A stretch of 64,000 nucleotides of DNA, from assembly GCF_918814575.1 (NCBI RefSeq), contig NZ_CAKKNS010000007.1, forward strand, positions 62,001 to 126,000, written 5' to 3'. This document shows, in pieces, positions 9,895 through 44,242 of this stretch. Position numbers and translations under genes: made by a program. Under the pieces are notes generated by a model. The model searched no databases. It had not been told where the DNA came from and saw only the letters and a program-made list of their open reading frames with translations. This stretch comes from Periweissella fabaria. GTDB lineage: Bacteria > Bacillota > Bacilli > Lactobacillales > Lactobacillaceae. Positions within the stretch are counted from its first letter, which is position 1. Every line of letters begins with the position of its first letter.

Positions 9895-10059
9895 GTTGAG
9901 AAAACAGAGTAGGAGCACCCGCTTCTCGCCTCAGTGATAATTACGTTGCTAGGCTAGATATTTTTAAAACCATGATGAATGATTTTATAAGCGGGTTTGC
10001 GTATTTATACGCGAACCCTCTTTTGTTTTCACGCAAAATAAAATTTGGAGGACAAAACC
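9895..10059 (+). promoter_or_regulatory. infC-rpmI-rplT attenuator leader
   Basis: The roughly 160-base leader ends in an intrinsic terminator with arms GGGTTTGCGT (9993-10002) and ACGCGAACCC (10009-10018) followed by TCTTTTGTTTT. An upstream ACCCGCTT (9917-9924) is perfectly complementary to AAGCGGGT (9989-9996), which overlaps the 5' terminator arm, so the two structures exclude each other. In Bacillota this operon is known to be controlled by binding of L20 to such a leader. That L20 is the effector here is inferred from the operon and leader position, not seen. Confidence 0.8.
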
Positions 10060-34564: not shown

Positions 34565-35068
34565 ATGATGGAAATTTTAGGTAGTGAGTTTTTAGAAATT
34601 GTCAAAAATGAGCAAGTCCTTGAAGCCAAGACGACACTTGCTAATTTTAATGAACTTAATTTTACAGCGGCGTTTGCCATTTTAGATCAAAATATAACCA
34701 AACAAACAGTAACGCGAGTACAAATTGATGTATCCGAGTTAGTTGAAGGGGAACCATTGATATTGAGTCTTGAAACATCAGTGATTAACTTACCATTGCG
34801 GTATACGAATGCGTTAACGAAATTAGTTGATGAAGAAACGATGTATCCGGTTAATGTATATATGATTGTTGAACACCCAATGGTTTCGCAGTCAAGTTTG
34901 TTTATCCAAAAAGCGGCATCAGTCGCAGCATATTTAGATGATCCAACCAGTGTGCAAGAGCGCGTTAAGACGTTTTTTGCTGATCAAGTAGCTTTAATTA
35001 AAGCTGGTGGTTGGGAAAGCTTAGTTGAGCCAACGACTGATGAACCAGTGCAAGAACCAACTGAATAA
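34565..35068 (+). CDS. Hypothetical soluble protein, 167 aa
   Basis: Not recognised. The start is ATG 34565 or the adjacent ATG 34568, after AAAGGATTAA. It is a soluble acidic protein with no membrane segment or cysteine. Hydrophobic beta-like stretches alternate (RVQIDVSELVEGEPLILSLE, YPVNVYMIVEHPM), and the C-terminus has a Glu/Pro/Thr tail (EPTTDEPVQEPTE). It is the last gene before the pyr operon, with a terminator just after. Confidence 0.65.
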   Translation: MMEILGSEFLEIVKNEQVLEAKTTLANFNELNFTAAFAILDQNITKQTVTRVQIDVSELVEGEPLILSLETSVINLPLRYTNALTKLVDEETMYPVNVYMIVEHPMVSQSSLFIQKAASVAAYLDDPTSVQERVKTFFADQVALIKAGGWESLVEPTTDEPVQEPTE

Positions 35069-35073
35069 GTAAT

Positions 35074-35116
35074 AGCAGAAACTACACAGTTCATAGGTGG
35101 GGTTTCTGCTTTTTTT
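35074..35116 (+). terminator. Terminator after the lplA transcript
   Basis: AGCAGAAAC (35074-35082) pairs with GTTTCTGCT (35102-35110), followed by TTTTTT. Confidence 0.88.
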
Positions 35117-35154
35117 ATGTAATATACGTAAATAAAATTAATTTAAAATGATTA

Positions 35155-35183
35155 TTGCAACGCAAAAATAATTCTGATATAAT
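35155..35183 (+). promoter_or_regulatory. Promoter of the pyr operon
   Basis: TTGCAA (35155-35160), 17 bases, consensus TATAAT (35178-35183) with TGA before it, an extended -10. Confidence 0.8.
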
Positions 35184-35200
35184 AATTTCTAATGTAAATG

Positions 35201-35317
35201 TCCTTTAAAGGTCGACCAGAGAGTCACTAAGGTAAGTTAAAAATAGCAGTAGGGATATACTGTAACTTTATTTAAGCTAACCTGTAAACTCTTTGGAAAT
35301 TCCAAAGAGTTTTTTTG
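35201..35317 (+). promoter_or_regulatory. PyrR attenuator 1
   Basis: A PyrR-binding-loop sequence with CCAGAGAG (35216-35223) and downstream AAGG/GTAAG precedes a terminator with arms AAACTCTTTGGA (35286-35297) and TCCAAAGAGTTT (35301-35312) plus T run. CCAGAGAGT (35216-35224) can pair with ACTCTTTGG (35288-35296), the antiterminator. In Bacillus PyrR with UMP holds the binding loop and lets the terminator form. Confidence 0.85.
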
Positions 35318-35354
35318 TATTTACAGTGCACAATTAAAATCACATAACGTCTAT

Positions 35355-35444
35355 TTAAGAAACTCCAGAGAGAGCACAACAGGCAAGCAAATGTTACGAT
35401 AAAAATCGGAAACTGCCCTCTCTTTGGAGAAGGCAGTTTTTTTT
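35355..35444 (+). promoter_or_regulatory. PyrR attenuator 2
   Basis: A second binding loop, CTCCAGAGAGAG (35363-35374) then AGGCAAG (35381-35387), and a second terminator AAACTGCC (35410-35417) / GGCAGTTT (35432-35439) with eight T. The loop strand 35363-35374 can pair over 12 bases with CTCTCTTTGGAG (35418-35429) inside the terminator. pyrB starts 15 bases after the T run. The gap 35318-35354 between the attenuators holds no gene. Confidence 0.87.
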
Positions 35445-35458
35445 GAAAGGAAGCCCAG

Positions 35459-36382
35459 ATGGTACAATTTGCAAATTTCTTAAACATCAATGATCTCTCA
35501 GATAGTGAATTACATGACTTACTGACTAGTGCATATGCATTTCGTGATGGTAAGCAAGTAACGTTGAAGCGGCCTGTTTATACCGCAAATTTATTTTTTG
35601 AAAATAGTACGCGGACTCACAGCTCATTTCAAATGGCTGAGCAACGTTTAGGAGTAAAGTTAATTGATATTAATCCATCAACTAGCTCAGTTACTAAGGG
35701 GGAATCATTAGGAGATACGCTAAAGACCTTACAGGCAATTGGCGTTGACTTTGTTGTGATACGCCACCGCTTGAATAACTGGTATGGTCCAATGGTTGAA
35801 GATCAAAATATTGAATTAGGACTTGTGAATGCTGGTGACGGTAGTGGTCAACACCCATCACAAAGTTTACTTGACTTAATGACGATTCATGATGAATTTA
35901 ATTCATTTGCGGGTTTGAATGTTGGAATCATCGGTGATATTGCACACTCACGAGTAGCCCGTTCAAATGCTGAAATTTTGAATCGCCTCGGTGCTAATGT
36001 TTTCTTCAGTGGTCCTAAAGAATGGTTTAATGAAGATTTTGCAAGCTTTGGGACGTATGTTGAAATCGATGAATTACTTCCTAAATTAGATGTTGTGATG
36101 TTGTTGCGTGTGCAAACTGAACGGCTTCAAAAAGATGACCTAAATGCGTTTACGGCCGTTGAATATCACCAACAATATGGATTAAATAAAGCTCGTTATG
36201 ATAGTTTAAAAGCCAGTGCAATTATTATGCACCCAGCACCAGTTAATCGAGATGTTGAAATTTCATCCGAATTAGTTGAAGCACCAAAATCAAAAATTTT
36301 CACCCAAATGCATAATGGCGTTTTTGCTCGCATGGCAATTTTAAATGCTGTTTTAGCAAGTAAAGGGTTAGTGGAGGAATAA
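35459..36382 (+). CDS. pyrB: Aspartate carbamoyltransferase catalytic subunit
   Basis: PyrB makes N-carbamoyl-aspartate from carbamoyl phosphate and aspartate. The 307-residue protein has the carbamoyl phosphate site FFENSTRTHSSFQMAE, GDGSGQHPSQSLLDLMTI and MLLRVQTER, and the aspartate-domain HPAPVNRDVE. No pyrI regulatory subunit is present, normal for Bacillota. AAAGGAAGCCCAG precedes the ATG. First gene of the seven-gene pyr operon. Confidence 0.97.
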   Translation: MVQFANFLNINDLSDSELHDLLTSAYAFRDGKQVTLKRPVYTANLFFENSTRTHSSFQMAEQRLGVKLIDINPSTSSVTKGESLGDTLKTLQAIGVDFVVIRHRLNNWYGPMVEDQNIELGLVNAGDGSGQHPSQSLLDLMTIHDEFNSFAGLNVGIIGDIAHSRVARSNAEILNRLGANVFFSGPKEWFNEDFASFGTYVEIDELLPKLDVVMLLRVQTERLQKDDLNAFTAVEYHQQYGLNKARYDSLKASAIIMHPAPVNRDVEISSELVEAPKSKIFTQMHNGVFARMAILNAVLASKGLVEE

Positions 36383-36383
36383 C

Positions 36384-37640
36384 ATGCAACACTTAATTAA
36401 AAATGGACGCATCGACGGCCAATTACAAGATATCTTGATTGAAGATGGAAAAGTAATTGCAATCGAAGCTGACATTCAAGCACCTGATAGTGAAATTTTT
36501 GACGCACAAGGTAAGGATGTGCTACCAGGGCTTGTTGATGTGCACGTACATTTTCGGGAACCGGGATTTGAATATAAAGAAACAATTGCATCAGGGAGTA
36601 AAGCGTCAGCACGGGGTGGTTTTACCACAGTAATTGCGATGCCTAACTTGAACCCTGTACCAGATACGGCAGATAAATTTGCGGCGCAAGTTAAGCGCAA
36701 TACTGAAAATTCGGTTATTAAAACTTATCAATTTGCTCCCATTTCAGGTGGTTTAATTGATGATCACGTAACCAACATGGCAGAAATCGCACAGTATCAA
36801 CCAGCTGGTTTTACTAACGATGGTCATGGTGTGCAAACTTCAATGACGATGCTCCAAGCGATGCGACAAGCAAAAAATTTAAACTTACCCATCGTAGCAC
36901 ACATTGAAGATGACAGTTTGGTAAATGGTGGTGCAATGAACGCCGGTGCGGTTGCCGATCGATTAGGCTTACCAGGGATGGAAAGCTTGAGTGAATCAAC
37001 CCAATTAGCACGTGACTTAGTAATGGTTAAGCAAACGGGTGTCCATTATCATGTGGCTCATATTTCAACTAAAGAATCAGTTGAAATGGTTCGCCAAGCT
37101 AAGCGTGAAGGGTTAAATGTAACTGCAGAAGTTTCACCACACCACGTCTTACTAGACGAAACAATGGTTGAGTTTGATAATCCATTTATGAAAATGAATC
37201 CACCATTACGTGCAACTGCCGACCGGTTAGCATGTATTGCTGGTTTAATGGATGGCACGATTGACATGGTTGCGACTGACCATGCACCACATAGTGTTGA
37301 AGAAAAAAGTGGCTCAATGAAAACCGCAGCCTTTGGGATTGTAGGAATTGAAACATCCCTTGCCTTGATGTACACCCACTTTGTTAAGAGTGGCTTAGTT
37401 AATCTAGCAACTTTACTTGAGTGGATGGCAGTTAAACCAGCCCAAGCGTTTAACTTATCAGCGGGTAAGTTAGCAGTCGGGACAGCTGCTGACTTCACAA
37501 TCGTTGATTTTGATGAAGAATATGAAATTAAAGCTGAAGACTTTATTTCAAAAGGTACTAACTCACCATTCCTTGGTGAAAAAGTATTCGGACAAGTATT
37601 AGCAACCTTTGTAGATGGACAAATGGTATATAGCAAATAG
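36384..37640 (+). CDS. pyrC: Dihydroorotase
   Basis: A type I dihydroorotase closing carbamoyl-aspartate to dihydroorotate. Metal ligands are in LVDVHVHFREPGFEYKETI, IVAHIEDDSL, VHYHVAHIST and VATDHAPHS. 418 residues. The ATG is two bases after the pyrB stop with GTGGAGGAATAAC as ribosome binding site. Confidence 0.97.
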   Translation: MQHLIKNGRIDGQLQDILIEDGKVIAIEADIQAPDSEIFDAQGKDVLPGLVDVHVHFREPGFEYKETIASGSKASARGGFTTVIAMPNLNPVPDTADKFAAQVKRNTENSVIKTYQFAPISGGLIDDHVTNMAEIAQYQPAGFTNDGHGVQTSMTMLQAMRQAKNLNLPIVAHIEDDSLVNGGAMNAGAVADRLGLPGMESLSESTQLARDLVMVKQTGVHYHVAHISTKESVEMVRQAKREGLNVTAEVSPHHVLLDETMVEFDNPFMKMNPPLRATADRLACIAGLMDGTIDMVATDHAPHSVEEKSGSMKTAAFGIVGIETSLALMYTHFVKSGLVNLATLLEWMAVKPAQAFNLSAGKLAVGTAADFTIVDFDEEYEIKAEDFISKGTNSPFLGEKVFGQVLATFVDGQMVYSK

Positions 37641-37650
37641 GAGAGAAGAT

Positions 37651-38730
37651 ATGGGATTACGATATTTAGTACTAAAAAATGGTTCAGTTTACCCTGGTGA
37701 AGGATTTGGTTCACCTAAAACTGTGCACGGCGAAATTGTATTTAGCACCGGTATGAGTGGTTACCAAGAAACAATGACAGATGCCAGTTACCTTGGTCAA
37801 ATGATTACATTTACTTATCCAATGATTGGTAACTATGGTATTAACAAGGATGACTTTGAAAGTTTAAAACCAACAGCGGATGCAATTATTACCCACGAAA
37901 TTGCCCGCCGCCCAAGTAACTTCCGTTCACAAATGAGCCTTGCTGAATTTGCTGAAAAAAAGGATTTACCAGGAATTACGGGAATTGATACGCGCGCTTT
38001 GACCAAAGAAATTCGGGACTCAGGTGCCATGGAAGCTGTGATTGTTGATTCATTAGATGAAGCAGTTGTTAAGGCAGCCTTTGAGATGGAACTTGCATCA
38101 ACTCAAGTTGCTGAAGTTTCAACTAAAACGATTTACCAAGCTCCAACTGATGGAATTGGCATTGCGGTGATTGATTTTGGGATTAAAAATTCAATCCTCC
38201 GTGCACTTGCTAAACGTGGGGTAAATGTAACAGTTTTCCCAGCCACAGTTGATGCTGAAACTGTTTTATCTGCTAATCCAGATGGAATTCTCCTTTCAAA
38301 CGGTCCTGGAGATCCTAAAGATGCAGCTTACGCAATTCCAATGATTCAAGAATTGCAAGCGCAATTACCATTAATGGGAATTTGTTTAGGCCACCAATTG
38401 TTCTCATTGGCCAATGGAGCAACAACTTACAAAATGAAATTCGGACACCGTGGTTTTAACCACGCAGTTCGTGACTTACGTAAAGCACATGCTGATTTTA
38501 CATCACAAAACCACGGTTACGCTGTTGATGCCGACTCACTTGTTGGAACTGATTTAGAAGTAACCCACGTTGAAGTAAATGATAAAACAGTTGAAGGGGT
38601 ACGTTTGAAGAGTCGTCCAGCCTTTTCAGTCCAATTCCACCCAGATGCTGCACCTGGTCCACACGATGCTGAATACATCTTTGACGATTTTATTGCTATG
38701 ATTCAAGAAGTTAACAAGGGAGATAAATAA
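37651..38730 (+). CDS. carA: Carbamoyl-phosphate synthase small (glutaminase) chain
   Basis: The class I amidotransferase subunit releases ammonia from glutamine for CarB. ATG 37651 follows AGGAGAGAAGAT; the frame is open farther upstream but overlaps pyrC. From there the protein is 359 aa, beginning [11 protein letters not shown]. The catalytic cysteine lies in [10 protein letters not shown], with the His-Glu pair in [13 protein letters not shown]. Placement in the pyr operon indicates the pyrimidine-linked enzyme. The stop overlaps the carB ATG. Confidence 0.97.
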
Positions 38731-41700
38731 TGCCAAAACGTACTGACATCAAGAAAATTTTAGTTATCGGTTCTGGTCCAATTGTGATTGGACAAGCCGC
38801 TGAGTTTGATTACTCAGGTGCGCAAGCATGTATTTCACTTCGAGAAGAAGGTTATGAAGTTATTTTAATTAACTCTAACCCAGCTACTATTATGACTGAC
38901 GTTGAAATTGCTGATAAGGTTTTCATTGAACCAATTACTTTAGATTTCGTTTCAAAAATTATTCGTCAAGAATTACCAGATGCAATCTTACCAACACTTG
39001 GTGGTCAAACTGGTTTGAACATGGCCAAGCAATTATCTGAATCAGGAATTTTAGCTGAGTTTGACGTTGAATTACTTGGTACTAAGCTTGAAGCGATTGA
39101 AGAAGCTGAAGACCGTGAAGAATTTAAAATGTTGATGGAACGCTTAAATGAACCAGTTCCTGAATCAACGATTGCTGTAACAACTCAAGAAGCACTTGAT
39201 TTTGCTAATGAAATTGGTTATCCAGTTGTTGTCCGTCCTGCTTATACATTAGGTGGTTTTGGTGGTGGATTTGCTAATAATGAACAAGAATTAGCTGAAA
39301 CAGCTGCTAATGGTTTGGAATTATCACCTGTAACCCAAGTCTTGATTGAAAAATCAATTGCTGGTTATAAAGAAATTGAATTTGAAGTTATGCGCGATGC
39401 GGTTGACAATGCTTTAATCGTTGCTTCAATGGAAAACTTCGATCCAGTTGGAGTCCACACTGGGGATTCAATCGTGGTGTCACCTGTACAAACACTTTCA
39501 GATCGTGAATACCAAATGATGCGTGATGTTGCCCTAAAGATTATCCGTGCCTTGAAGATTGAGGGTGGAGTTAATATCCAAATGGCCTTAAATCCACTTA
39601 GCATGCAATACTACATCATCGAAGTTAACCCACGGGTTTCACGTTCATCAGCTTTGGCGTCTAAAGCAACTGGTTACCCAATTGCTAAGATGGCAGCTAA
39701 GATTGCGGTTGGTTTGAACTTAGATGAAATTACTAATCCTGTTACTGGAACAACATTAGCTGAATTTGAACCAGCCTTGGACTACGTTGTTGCTAAAATC
39801 CCACGTTGGCCATTTGATAAATTTACCGCTGCTGATCGTTCACTTGGAACACAAATGAAGGCAACTGGTGAAGTTATGGCAATTGGTCGTAACATGGAAG
39901 AAGCTTTGCTCAAAGCCGTACGTTCGCTTGAAATTGGTGTTATCCACGGTAACGAATTAAAATACGCTGACTTTTCAGACCAAGAACTTAAAGATGCACT
40001 TGTACCAGCCCGTGACGATCGTTTATTCATGCTCTTTGAACTAATTCGTCGGGGAGTAACCATTGAAGAAATTCATGATATTACTAAGATTGATATTTGG
40101 TTCTTGGATAAATTACTTCACATTGTTGAAATTGAAGCCCTTTTAGTAAATGATCAATCAGTTGCTGCTTTGACTTTAGCAAAGAAAAACGGATTCAGTG
40201 ATGAAGCTATTGCTGGTTTCTGGAACAAGACTGCTAAAGAAGTACGTGATATCCGTAAGGCTGAAAAAGTACAACCAGTTTACAAAATGGTGGATACTGT
40301 GGCCGCTGAATTTAAATCAAAGACACCATACTACTATGGTACGTATGAACAAGAAAATGATGTCATTGTTAATGACAAGCCATCAGTACTTGTTCTTGGT
40401 TCAGGCCCAATTCGGATTGGACAAGGGGTTGAATTTGATTATGCGACTGTGCACTCAGTACGTGCAATCCAAGATGCTGGTTACGAAGCCATTATCATGA
40501 ACTCAAACCCAGAAACAGTCTCAACAGACTTCTCAATTTCAGATAAGCTTTACTTCGAACCATTAACAATTGAAGATGTTTTAAATGTGATTGATTTAGA
40601 ACAACCAATTGGAGTGGTTGTACAATTTGGTGGTCAAACAGCGATTAACTTAGCTAAGCCATTAGTTGAAAATGGTGTTAAGGTTCTTGGTACCAGTGTT
40701 GAAGCGCTTGACCGTGCGGAAGACCGGGAACTATTTGATCAAGTTATTAAGAAGCTTGATTTACCACAACCAGTAGGAGCGACCGCAACTACAGTTGAAC
40801 ATGCCGTTGAAGTTGCCCAACAAATTGGTTACCCAGTCTTGGTACGCCCATCATATGTTCTTGGTGGTCGCGCAATGGAAATTGTTGCTTCAGATGATGA
40901 CTTACGCGATTACATGCAACGGGCCGTACAAGTTTCTAATGAACACCCAGTATTGATTGATTCATACTTAGTTGGTTCTGAAGCCGAAGTTGATGTTATC
41001 AGTGATGGTGAGACTGTTGTTATTCCAGGAATTTTGGAACACATTGAACGTGCCGGAGTTCACTCAGGTGACTCAATGGGAGTATACCCACCACAAACAA
41101 TGTCAGCTAACGTGAAAGACCAAATTATTAAGGCATCAATTGCTTTAGCTAAAGAATTACAAACATTTGGTTTGATGAACATTCAGTTTGTTATTCACGA
41201 CGACGTTGCTTATGTGATTGAAGTTAACCCACGTGCCTCACGGACAGTACCATTTATGTCTAAAGTTACTAAAATTCCAATGGCTCAAATTGCATCTAAG
41301 ATTATGTTAGGTACTAAATTAGCTGATCTTGGTTTTGAAACTGGGTTGTACCCAGAAACTGAAGGCGTCCACGTGAAAGCACCAATCTTTAGTTTCAATA
41401 AATTACCAATGGTTGATAGTACTTTAGGACCTGAAATGAAATCAACAGGGGAAGTTATGGGTTCAGACGTCACATTCCCTAAAGCTTTATATAAGGCGTT
41501 CTTAGCTGCGAATGTATCAGTACCAAAACATGGTAACATTATGTTTACAGTTGCTGATGCGGATAAACAAGAAGCAATGGGCTTAGCTAAGCGCTTCCGT
41601 GCTCTTGGCTTCCAAATATATGCAACACAAAATACCGCTAATGTCTTTGAAGACGGTGGTGTTAAGACACGCGTAATGGGTAAGTTAACAGAATCAGATA

Positions 41701-41903
41701 ATAATGCTGTTTCTGCACTTAAAGATCGCAAATTACAAATTGTTGTTAACACAATGGATAACAGTCGCCGGACAACTAATGATGGTGCTGAAATTCGTGA
41801 AGCAGCGATTGAAAATGCTGTTCCATTATTTACTTCGCTTGACACTGTTGCTGCCTTCCTAGATGTATTAGAAGATCAAGCTTTAAGTTTGATTGCGCTT
41901 TAA
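38730..41903 (+). CDS. carB: Carbamoyl-phosphate synthase large chain
   Basis: The 1057-residue synthetase makes carbamoyl phosphate from bicarbonate, ammonia and two ATP. Two homologous ATP-grasp halves are visible: first [51 protein letters not shown]; second [44 protein letters not shown]. The C-terminal allosteric MGS-like domain (about 930-1057) contains [15 protein letters not shown]. It overlaps carA by one base (TAATG). Confidence 0.98.
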
Positions 41904-41932
41904 GAAATAAGTTAAGACGAGGAAAAATATTC

Positions 41933-42646
41933 ATGAAACCGGTTATTGTAGCCCTAGATTTTGATAATAAAGCCGCTGCCTTTGCGTGCGTTGAACAACT
42001 TGCCAATTACGAAAATGTCTTTGTTAAAGTTGGAATGGAAATGTTTTATGCATATGGTCCTGAATTCATAAAGGAATTAAAACAACTTAATGTGAAAATT
42101 TTCCTTGATGTCAAAATGTATGACATTCCAAACACAGTTGAACATGCGGCTTTCCAAATTGGTAAGTTAGGCGTTGATATTGTGACCGTTCACGCAGCTG
42201 GAGGGCCAGCAATGATTGAAGCGGCTAAGCGTGGTTTACAAGCCGGTACTGCTGAAATTGGTAAAGCAACCCCGATGTTACTTGCTATTACGCAATTAAC
42301 ATCATTTTCTGAAGCCGATGTGCAGTATACACAAGGAATTAGTATGTCATTACAAGATTCTGTGATTCACTTAGCACGTCTAGCAGCTGCTTCAGGTGCT
42401 GATGGGGTTGTCGCTTCAGCTTATGAAGCCCAACTTATTCATGATAATGTTAACCCCGAGTTTAAAGTTATTACCCCTGGAATTCGTTTAGCTGGGGATG
42501 ATGCATCTGATCAAAAGCGAGTGGTTACGCCTAAACGTGCCGCTGAATTTAGTAGCGATGGAATCGTAGTTGGTCGTTCAATTACGCAAGCTCACGATAT
42601 GCGTCAAGCCTATCAACAAGTATTAACAGAATTTGAGGAGAAGTAA
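41933..42646 (+). CDS. pyrF: Orotidine 5'-phosphate decarboxylase
   Basis: PyrF decarboxylates OMP to UMP. The 237-residue TIM barrel shows PVIVALDFDNKAAA, FVKVGMEMFYAYG, the catalytic KIFLDVKMYDIPNTV, DIVTVHAAGG, VITPGIRL and the phosphate loop SDGIVVGRSIT. A weak GAGGAAAAATATTC precedes the ATG. Confidence 0.97.
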   Translation: MKPVIVALDFDNKAAAFACVEQLANYENVFVKVGMEMFYAYGPEFIKELKQLNVKIFLDVKMYDIPNTVEHAAFQIGKLGVDIVTVHAAGGPAMIEAAKRGLQAGTAEIGKATPMLLAITQLTSFSEADVQYTQGISMSLQDSVIHLARLAAASGADGVVASAYEAQLIHDNVNPEFKVITPGIRLAGDDASDQKRVVTPKRAAEFSSDGIVVGRSITQAHDMRQAYQQVLTEFEEK

Positions 42647-42647
42647 G

Positions 42648-43286
42648 ATGAGTAATGTTGATTTACATGCAATTGCCACTGAAATTTCAGCTGGCTTATT
42701 AGAAATTGGAGCCGTTAAGTTACAACCAAATGACCCATTTACTTGGGCATCTGGTATTAAGAGTCCCATTTACACTGATAATCGCCAAACAATTGGATAT
42801 CCAAAAGTTCGCTCAATTATTGCTCAAGGACTTGCAACGTTAATTAAAACTAAATTTCCTGATGTTGAAGTAATTGGTGGTGTCGCAACAGCCGGAATTC
42901 CACATGCTGCACTAGTAGCAGATATTTTGGAACTACCAATGATTTATGTTCGGGCCCAACCTAAAGATCACGGTGCTAAAAAGCAACTCGAAGGTTATGA
43001 TGTCACGGGGAAAAAAGTAGTATTAATTGATGATTTAATCTCAACAGGTGGTTCTGTATTGGGTGCTGCTAAGGCGGTTACTGCTGAAGGTGGTCAGATG
43101 CTTGGGGTTGCTGCAATCTTCACATATGAGTTACCTAAAGCAGATCAAAATTTTGCTGCACAAGAGTTAGAATATTTTGCAGTAACAAACTACTCAAACT
43201 TGATTCAGACAGCAGCTAATGAAAATTATGTCTCACATGATGACGTGGAAATGTTAACTAACTGGCGCAACGAATTAGCAAAATAA
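42648..43286 (+). CDS. pyrE: Orotate phosphoribosyltransferase
   Basis: PyrE converts orotate and PRPP to OMP. The PRPP-binding loop is [20 protein letters not shown]; other family stretches are [30 protein letters not shown] and [20 protein letters not shown] 42648 follows TGAGGAGAAGTAAG that overlaps the pyrF end; the protein is 212 aa. Confidence 0.97.
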
Positions 43287-43309
43287 TATTAAAATTGGGA
43301 GATTTAATG

Positions 43310-44242
43310 ATGGCAATTGATTTTAAGACAACGATGGCGAATGCAGAATTTCCAAGTATTTTCTTGAATGCATCTGGAGTTAACTGTATGACAGTTACTG
43401 AGATGGATGAAATGATTAACGCAGCATGTACCGGTGGTGTGGTTACTAAAAGTGCAACCCCACAACAACGTGAGGGGAATCCTCAACCACGGTATTACCA
43501 ATTAGAACATGGTTCAATTAATTCTATGGGCTTACCAAATGAAGGTTTTCCATATTATTTGGATTATGTAACTAAAGAACATGCCAAGCCAACTATTTTA
43601 TCAGTTGCCGGATTAAAAATGTCTGATAATATTGAATTGCTCCACAAAATTCAAGCAAGTGACTATACTGGGTTAACAGAACTTAACTTATCATGCCCTA
43701 ACGTGATTGGTAAGCCACAAGTTGCCTATGATTTTGAAGAAACTGATGCCTTATTAGCTGAAATCTTTAGCTTTTACACAAAGCCATTGGGGGTTAAATT
43801 ACCACCATACTTTGATTTAGTTCACTTTGATCAAATGGCGACAATTCTAAATAAATATCCATTAACCCACATTAATACTGTTAATTCAGTTGGAAATGGT
43901 TTGTGGATTGATATTGATACGGAAAAAGTGGTTATTAAACCTAAACAAGGTTTTGGTGGTTTAGGTGGAACGATGATCTTACCTACTGCGCTTGCTAATG
44001 TGCGCGCATTTCGTCAACGCCTTAACCCAAGTATCAAAATTATTGGTACCGGTGGGGTAACTAGCGGGGCGGACGTATTTATGCATCTCCTATGTGGTGC
44101 AGATATGGTTAGTGTTGGGACAGCTTTACTCCATGAAGGCGTGGGAATCTTCCAACGTTTAACGGATGAATTAACAACTATCATGGCGGAAAAAGGTTAC
44201 ACTTCAATCGAAGACTTCCGTGGTAAAGTACAAGATTTCTAA
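43310..44242 (+). CDS. pyrD: Dihydroorotate dehydrogenase, class 1A
   Basis: A soluble FMN enzyme oxidising dihydroorotate. Class 1A (fumarate-dependent) is suggested by [16 protein letters not shown], the catalytic cysteine in [18 protein letters not shown], and absence of a pyrK electron-transfer subunit gene in the operon. FMN phosphate site: [30 protein letters not shown]. Start ATG 43310 (or 43307) follows TTGGGAGATTTA; about 310 aa. It is last in the pyr operon and is followed by a terminator. Confidence 0.95.

Follow-up and report, generated by a model that had tools for sequence, protein, structure and literature searches.

In the pyr operon of Bacillus subtilis, attenuation regions precede pyrR, pyrP and pyrB, according to PMC7430163, which agrees with the first-pass annotation of the DNA analysed here, where successive Bacillus attenuators were said to be separated by pyrR or pyrP. 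The same source describes a binding hairpin, an antiterminator, a terminator, UMP-dependent PyrR and several attenuators per operon, and gives the consensus core of the PyrR site, located in a hairpin loop, as ARUCCAGAGAGGYU. The pyr operon leader of Periweissella fabaria resembles this system in all these respects as far as they can be predicted, but whereas each B. subtilis attenuation region lies before its own gene, here two lie before one gene and pyrR is found at another locus. PyrR-dependent attenuation before pyr genes has also been studied by mutation in Streptococcus pneumoniae, where the pyrR RNA element is a further likeness; the word “tandem” is absent from the main text of that paper, and no pair appears among 12 of the 30 places listed (PMC6296669). 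Among the literature matches listed, as judged by titles and the starts of abstracts, we found no description of a tandem PyrR attenuator pair. Glycine riboswitch elements are ligand-binding RNAs with one common expression platform. Tandem glycine riboswitches likewise combine two sensing elements in one leader, for which a cooperative response has been suggested (PMC3766115). Unlike these, the leader described here would contain two protein-dependent elements, each with its own terminator.

The window, meaning the whole analysed stretch of 64,000 nt, contains between the end of the upstream ORF at 35068 and pyrB at 35459 a promoter-like site, two attenuators and a likely ribosome-binding site (Table 1). 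Two complete PyrR attenuators in tandem, with no gene between them, had been claimed from the sequence; we confirmed this layout upstream of pyrB at 35202–35316 (unit 1) and 35349–35444 (unit 2) and located in both units all three elements assigned to them, the CCAGAGAG binding loop, the antiterminator and the terminator. Two points were refined. The spacer, given as about 40 bases, is indeed short and gene-free, and measures 32 nt from the unit 1 T-run to the unit 2 stem (35317–35348). The antiterminator complement described for both units also stood, with the refinement that the strand of the binding loop serves as the antiterminator strand. pyrB starts 14 nt past the unit 2 T-run, hence the units have the position before pyrimidine genes that is expected of PyrR attenuators. 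No ORF of at least 20 amino acids was found on the + strand in 35180–35458; all four such overlapping ORFs lie on the − strand. The promoter scan that yielded the site in Table 1 returned 4 promoter-like sites vs 1.6 expected in shuffles. Within the likely operon, carA, carB, pyrE and pyrD were named from their translations alone. PyrB shares 96% identity with its P. ghanensis and P. fabalis counterparts, which places the window in Periweissella.

Table 1 Features of the pyrB leader and the operon downstream, in window coordinates.
Feature	Position	Strand	Basis or detail
Promoter-like site of the pyr operon, TTGCAA-17-TATAAT, TG before the −10	35155–35183	+	Consensus match only
Unit 1 PyrR-binding (anti-antiterminator) hairpin, predicted	35202–35232	+	Core CCAGAGAG at 35216–35223; lower stem CCUU/AAGG
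Unit 1 antiterminator	35216–35296	+	35216–35224 paired with 35288–35296, middle hairpin between; truncated-transcript folds
Unit 1 terminator, 12-bp stem, and T-run	35286–35316	+	Terminator scan and folds
Unit 2 PyrR-binding hairpin, predicted	35349–35384	+	Core CCAGAGAG at 35365–35372; lower stem GUCU/AGGC
Unit 2 antiterminator	35363–35429	+	CUCCAGAGAGAG at 35363–35374 paired with CUCUCUUUGGAG at 35418–35429; folds
Unit 2 terminator, stem with one C·A mismatch, and T-run	35410–35444	+	One-mismatch scan and constrained fold
pyrB, encoding aspartate carbamoyltransferase, at the head of the controlled operon	35459–36382	+	
Rest of the likely operon: pyrC, pyrF, carA, carB, pyrE-like, pyrD-like	36384–44242	+	pyrC, pyrF: NCBIfam

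In a permissive run, both units matched the full Rfam model of the PyrR binding site (RF00515), unit 1 at 35198–35319 with 45.2 bits and unit 2 at 35347–35444 with 29.0 bits, corresponding to whole-genome E-values of 3.9e-5 and 0.0424. Both scores are under 54, the gathering score of RF00515, and neither unit appears in the default run. This score is a database cut-off and not a biological feature, and applying it can miss likely PyrR attenuators, as in this leader. Each unit folds better than its own shuffles (z = −2.64 for unit 1 and −2.33 for unit 2). The CCAGAGAG loop is closed by a 3-pair stem in both units, matching the conserved core expected of a PyrR attenuator, and deviates from the consensus in the outer letters, with GACC..UCAC in unit 1 and CUCC..AGCA in unit 2; the expected lower stem below an internal bulge is likewise present in both (Table 1). 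A terminator scan of 35000–35500 returned the unit 1 terminator on the + strand. The unit 2 hairpin was scored on the − strand only, because the stem on the + strand has one C·A mismatch (35418 vs 35431); it was recovered on the + strand, at −48 to −20, by a scan tolerating one mismatch, and also forms in a constrained fold.

Alternative structures were found by in silico folding. When the unit 1 transcript is cut before the 3′ arm of the terminator, CCAGAGAGU (35216–35224) pairs with ACUCUUUGG (35288–35296) at −28.3 kcal/mol, and this pairing closes a long antiterminator over the middle hairpin. At full length and unconstrained, unit 1 of the window's genome (G000) prefers the 12-bp terminator (−31.1), while full-length unit 2 prefers the CUCCAGAGAGAG/CUCUCUUUGGAG pairing (−25.5) and changes to the terminator when the binding hairpin is forced (−22.2). 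For both units of genomes G000, G056, G114 and G019, and likewise for G087 unit 2, truncation led to the antiterminator and forcing of the binding hairpin to the terminator. These folds are consistent with the mutually exclusive antiterminator and intrinsic terminator predicted for PyrR attenuators. By free energy alone and without PyrR, unit 1 would lean towards “stop” and unit 2 towards “go”, with the same leanings in G056, G114 and G019 (unit 1 terminator, unit 2 antiterminator), although such default states are only weakly indicated because RNA folds during transcription. In G087, the full sequence of unit 2 already preferred the terminator; the boundaries chosen for its unit 1 took in too much sequence to indicate a default state. 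Over the tandem leaders of the family survey described below, the loop-to-terminator pairing beat shuffles at the 0.05 level in only 9 of the 32 cases for unit 1 and 13 of the 28 for unit 2. With so few pairings above shuffles, some genera must use another antiterminator.

The pyrR gene had been reported as missing from the window, and the window indeed lacks it: the best match in the genome lies on another contig (G000:C1:59338–59835; the window is in C7). It encodes the one close PyrR of this genome, which is 60% identical to the B. subtilis protein and scores above two NCBIfam PyrR cut-offs (278.4 vs 218 and 236.7 vs 138). The absence of any PyrR gene from the genome, which the first-pass annotation had named as a refuting observation, is thereby contradicted. 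The gene order at this locus is rluD together with an lspA-like ORF (both names were taken from the translations), then pyrR, then a second carA (L009, 1492–3115), in addition to the one in the window's pyr operon. By analogy, this second carA suggests two carbamoyl phosphate synthases in this Periweissella, such as occur in Lactobacillus plantarum. The CCNGNGAG core is absent from the 1491 bases upstream of pyrR; therefore, this gene is probably not under an attenuator of its own. A tree built from 92 PyrR proteins and the B. subtilis one places the five Periweissella PyrRs in one group (99/81) among the carA-linked PyrRs and apart from those encoded between two attenuators, with the reservations that support for the deepest split is weak (41/86) and that 5 of the 45 carA-linked proteins lie across it. 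Further candidate PyrR sites of this genome score 50.2 bits before an NCS2-family permease and 36.7 bits before an NCS1-like one, both below gathering.

Turning to relatives, we sampled 201 genomes of the Lactobacillaceae, detected pyrB in 166 and read 150 of these 166 leaders, sorting them by the CCNGNGAG core and nearby genes. A leader was called tandem if it had two cores within 420 nt of pyrB and no pyrR in up to 1400 nt of upstream sequence. By this core motif, a tandem pair was present in 33 of the 150 leaders, distributed over 14 genera, and the arrangement attenuator-pyrR-attenuator-pyrB in 25 leaders of 7 genera; the remaining leaders had one core (42), a uraA-like gene before pyrB (33) or another layout (17). 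Extra cores at −57 in L123 (single) and −69 in L166 (tandem) were set aside by hand, and G133, whose contig stops 191 nt upstream, was for that reason counted as single. All five Periweissella leaders are tandem in this comparison with relatives, which the first-pass annotation had proposed. Among the other genera, the tandem share was 6/6 in g23, 5/5 in g20, 4/5 in g14, 3/7 in g6, 2/6 in g22, 1/7 in g26, 1/6 each in g5 and g33 and 1/2 in g32, while g4, g11, g36 and g40 were represented by one leader each, all tandem. A terminator was recognised in both units of 27 of the 33 tandem leaders and was missing in one unit of the other six; in Periweissella the scan missed one, in unit 1 of G087.

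PyrR was detected at E ≤ 1e-25 in 193 of the 201 genomes, including all 33 with a tandem leader; at this threshold it was not found in seven genomes of g29 and one of g18. Genus g29 served as a negative control, lacking the core in 5/5 leaders read and a detectable PyrR in 7/7 genomes. These g29 leaders (L076, L081, L093, L097 and L119) have kept a terminator just before pyrB. This control is countered by g24, in which five leaders (L096, L114, L117, L121 and L130) have no CCNGNGAG core before pyrB despite the presence of PyrR; they carry a strong terminator no more than 80 nt from pyrB, and their binding loop has possibly diverged.

Loss of a gene and duplication of the attenuator had been offered as alternative origins of the pair. 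To compare them, we took the attenuator-pyrR-attenuator-pyrB layout and trained position profiles on its 25 first and its 25 second attenuators, which in leave-one-genus-out classification assigned 25/25 first and 25/25 second attenuators correctly. Unit 1 of the tandem leaders was of the first, pyrR-leader type in 31/33 cases (exceptions G019, with −4.0 on the wrong side of the profile, and G023) and unit 2 of the second, pyrB-leader type in 28/33 (exceptions G179, G198, G005, G067 and G040). In 31/33 genomes, all except G067 and G040, unit 1 had the higher rank of the two, and genera g32 and g40 are contrary to this order; the window scored +2.6 for unit 1 and −8.3 for unit 2. If the two units were copies of one another made in place, they should be more alike within than between genomes. 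Outside the 8-base core, they are not: their identity in the 33 tandem genomes was 0.527 within a genome vs 0.529 between genera, below that of same-position units of different genera (0.600 when both are unit 1 and 0.559 when both are unit 2), and in most genomes the two fall into different profile classes. Both layouts also occur inside g6 and inside g22. Profile classes, identities and mixed genera together favour a pair of unlike attenuators that lost the pyrR gene between them, which by sequence comparison appears to be the best general origin across the family; that pyrR was lost, and not gained, is a direction taken by analogy from Bacillus. Duplication in place draws on the CCAGAGAG loop and the CUCUUUGG terminator arm common to both units of G000, on the single g4 leader (G043), whose within-genome identity of 0.69 may reflect a true duplication, and on unit 2 of G000, which by raw identity is slightly nearer to the unit 1 (0.542) than to the unit 2 (0.522) of other genera. 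Set against the family-wide identities and classes, we regard it as unlikely. For Periweissella itself, the ancestry signal appears weak and partly contrary: unit 1 of G019 is on the wrong side of the profile, the G000 units are 0.56 identical to each other and unit 1 is 0.561 identical to other unit 1s, and the genus means are 0.58 to the first and 0.57 to the second type for unit 1 and 0.54 and 0.55 for unit 2, a difference of 0.01. Recent duplication is disfavoured and loss favoured across the family, and we infer that Periweissella acquired its own pair by the same loss of pyrR.

A pair left by loss of pyrR could still contain one working unit only, the other being a relic, most likely unit 2 with its weaker Rfam match of 29 bits. 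Its terminator mismatch points in the same direction, as do the 42/150 leaders with one core only and the folds of the isolated G000 binding hairpins, which were no better than shuffles, with unit 2 at −2.5 kcal/mol, and which we do not count in favour of the attenuators. However, the unit 2 core is intact in 5/5 Periweissella, among which PyrB identity to the window goes down to 63%, and its predicted switch from antiterminator to terminator once the binding hairpin is forced recurs in G000, G056, G114 and G019. Moreover, its lower stem covaries across 14 genera: the pairing scored 11.46 with its own partner and 8.63 with partners swapped between genera, and 0 of 20,000 permutations were as high, in a test that ignores kinship between genera. 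This covariation argues that unit 2 has been maintained, and a relic seems improbable. The swap between genera was used here instead of per-sequence shuffling of the lower stem, which is uninformative for single units, and MAFFT hairpin alignments, out of register at the unit 2 lower stem, were left out of the pair counts. No covariation was seen in the nearly invariant lower stem of unit 1 (4219/20,000 permutations as high) or in the second attenuators of the pyrR-containing layout alone (1594/20,000; 7 genera). If both units are kept, they might yet answer different signals, for instance PyrR at unit 1 and another factor at unit 2, as their different sequence classes and predicted default states could indicate. 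Yet the CCNGNGAG core is kept in both, it is absent from the g29 leaders read, where PyrR is undetected, and in the pyrB leader all other Rfam families stay below their gathering scores, which makes separate signals very improbable.

We therefore consider it likely that the leader holds two PyrR attenuators in series, supplied with PyrR from a separate locus, and that the pair is the scar of an attenuator-pyrR-attenuator-pyrB operon after loss of pyrR. The pyr operon transcript would begin with the two attenuators. Under a shortage of uridine nucleotides, each unit would pair its binding-loop strand with the 5′ arm of its terminator, letting RNA polymerase read on. With plentiful UMP/UTP, PyrR, encoded beside rluD and the second carA, would hold the binding hairpin, the terminator would form and the transcript would end. 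Both attenuators would have been kept when pyrR left the operon. In-cell PyrR binding and termination at both predicted units is what we infer from this model. Since polymerase must pass both units, the expected read-through is that of one unit multiplied by that of the other, and it is plausible, as the first-pass annotation had proposed, that two units in series multiply repression and sharpen the response to UMP. The mechanism would be the same as in Bacillus PyrR attenuation, an ordinary one in an unusual, conserved and recurrent layout.

To look beyond the family, we scanned 398 Bacilli genomes with three paired patterns, CCAGAGAG-N-CCAGAGAG and two consensus patterns. The former matched in 9/398 genomes and, by tblastn, lay beside pyr genes only in G000 and G428; the other seven matches were not beside pyr genes and look like chance. 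The two consensus patterns matched 3 and 8 of the 398 genomes. G435, G314, G376, G458 and G382 were dropped, having no match to the five query proteins. These counts are lower limits because the exact patterns miss most Lactobacillaceae pairs. G428 and G489, belonging to other Bacilli families, both have the order rluD-pyrR-core-core-pyrB; by eye, each core is followed by a hairpin and T-run, and G428 has a further core before pyrR. The two cores thus lie between pyrR and pyrB, where B. subtilis has pyrP (PMC7430163).

More tentatively, recurrent loss of the gene between PyrR attenuators, pyrR in Lactobacillaceae and pyrP in other Bacilli, might leave an unlike pair that is then selected as a two-stage lock. 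A pyrR-leader-type stage, with the terminator as default, would be followed by a pyrB-leader-type stage, open by default, and the lock would replace the feedback lost with pyrR; we regard this as a possibility that is at present rather doubtful. The leaders form a natural series: switches of the same kinds occur with a gene between them, next to each other or with only one left. This series makes it testable whether stacked protein-controlled terminators multiply repression and how pyrimidine control proceeds after the regulator gene has left the operon.

In three genomes matched by the consensus patterns (L261 in G489, L266 in G387 and L267 in G414), a transporter-like gene, MFS-type by its translation, lies downstream of a PyrR attenuator-like element and then a second PyrR-like loop with no visible terminator. 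In G489, this second loop directly abuts the Shine-Dalgarno-like GGAAGGAG, as if this site worked on translation; the second-loop folds are not clearly better than shuffles, of which 88 and 27 of 200 were as good. Elsewhere in the window, positions 9901–10030 match the Rfam L20 leader (RF00558) with 62.4 bits, above its gathering score.
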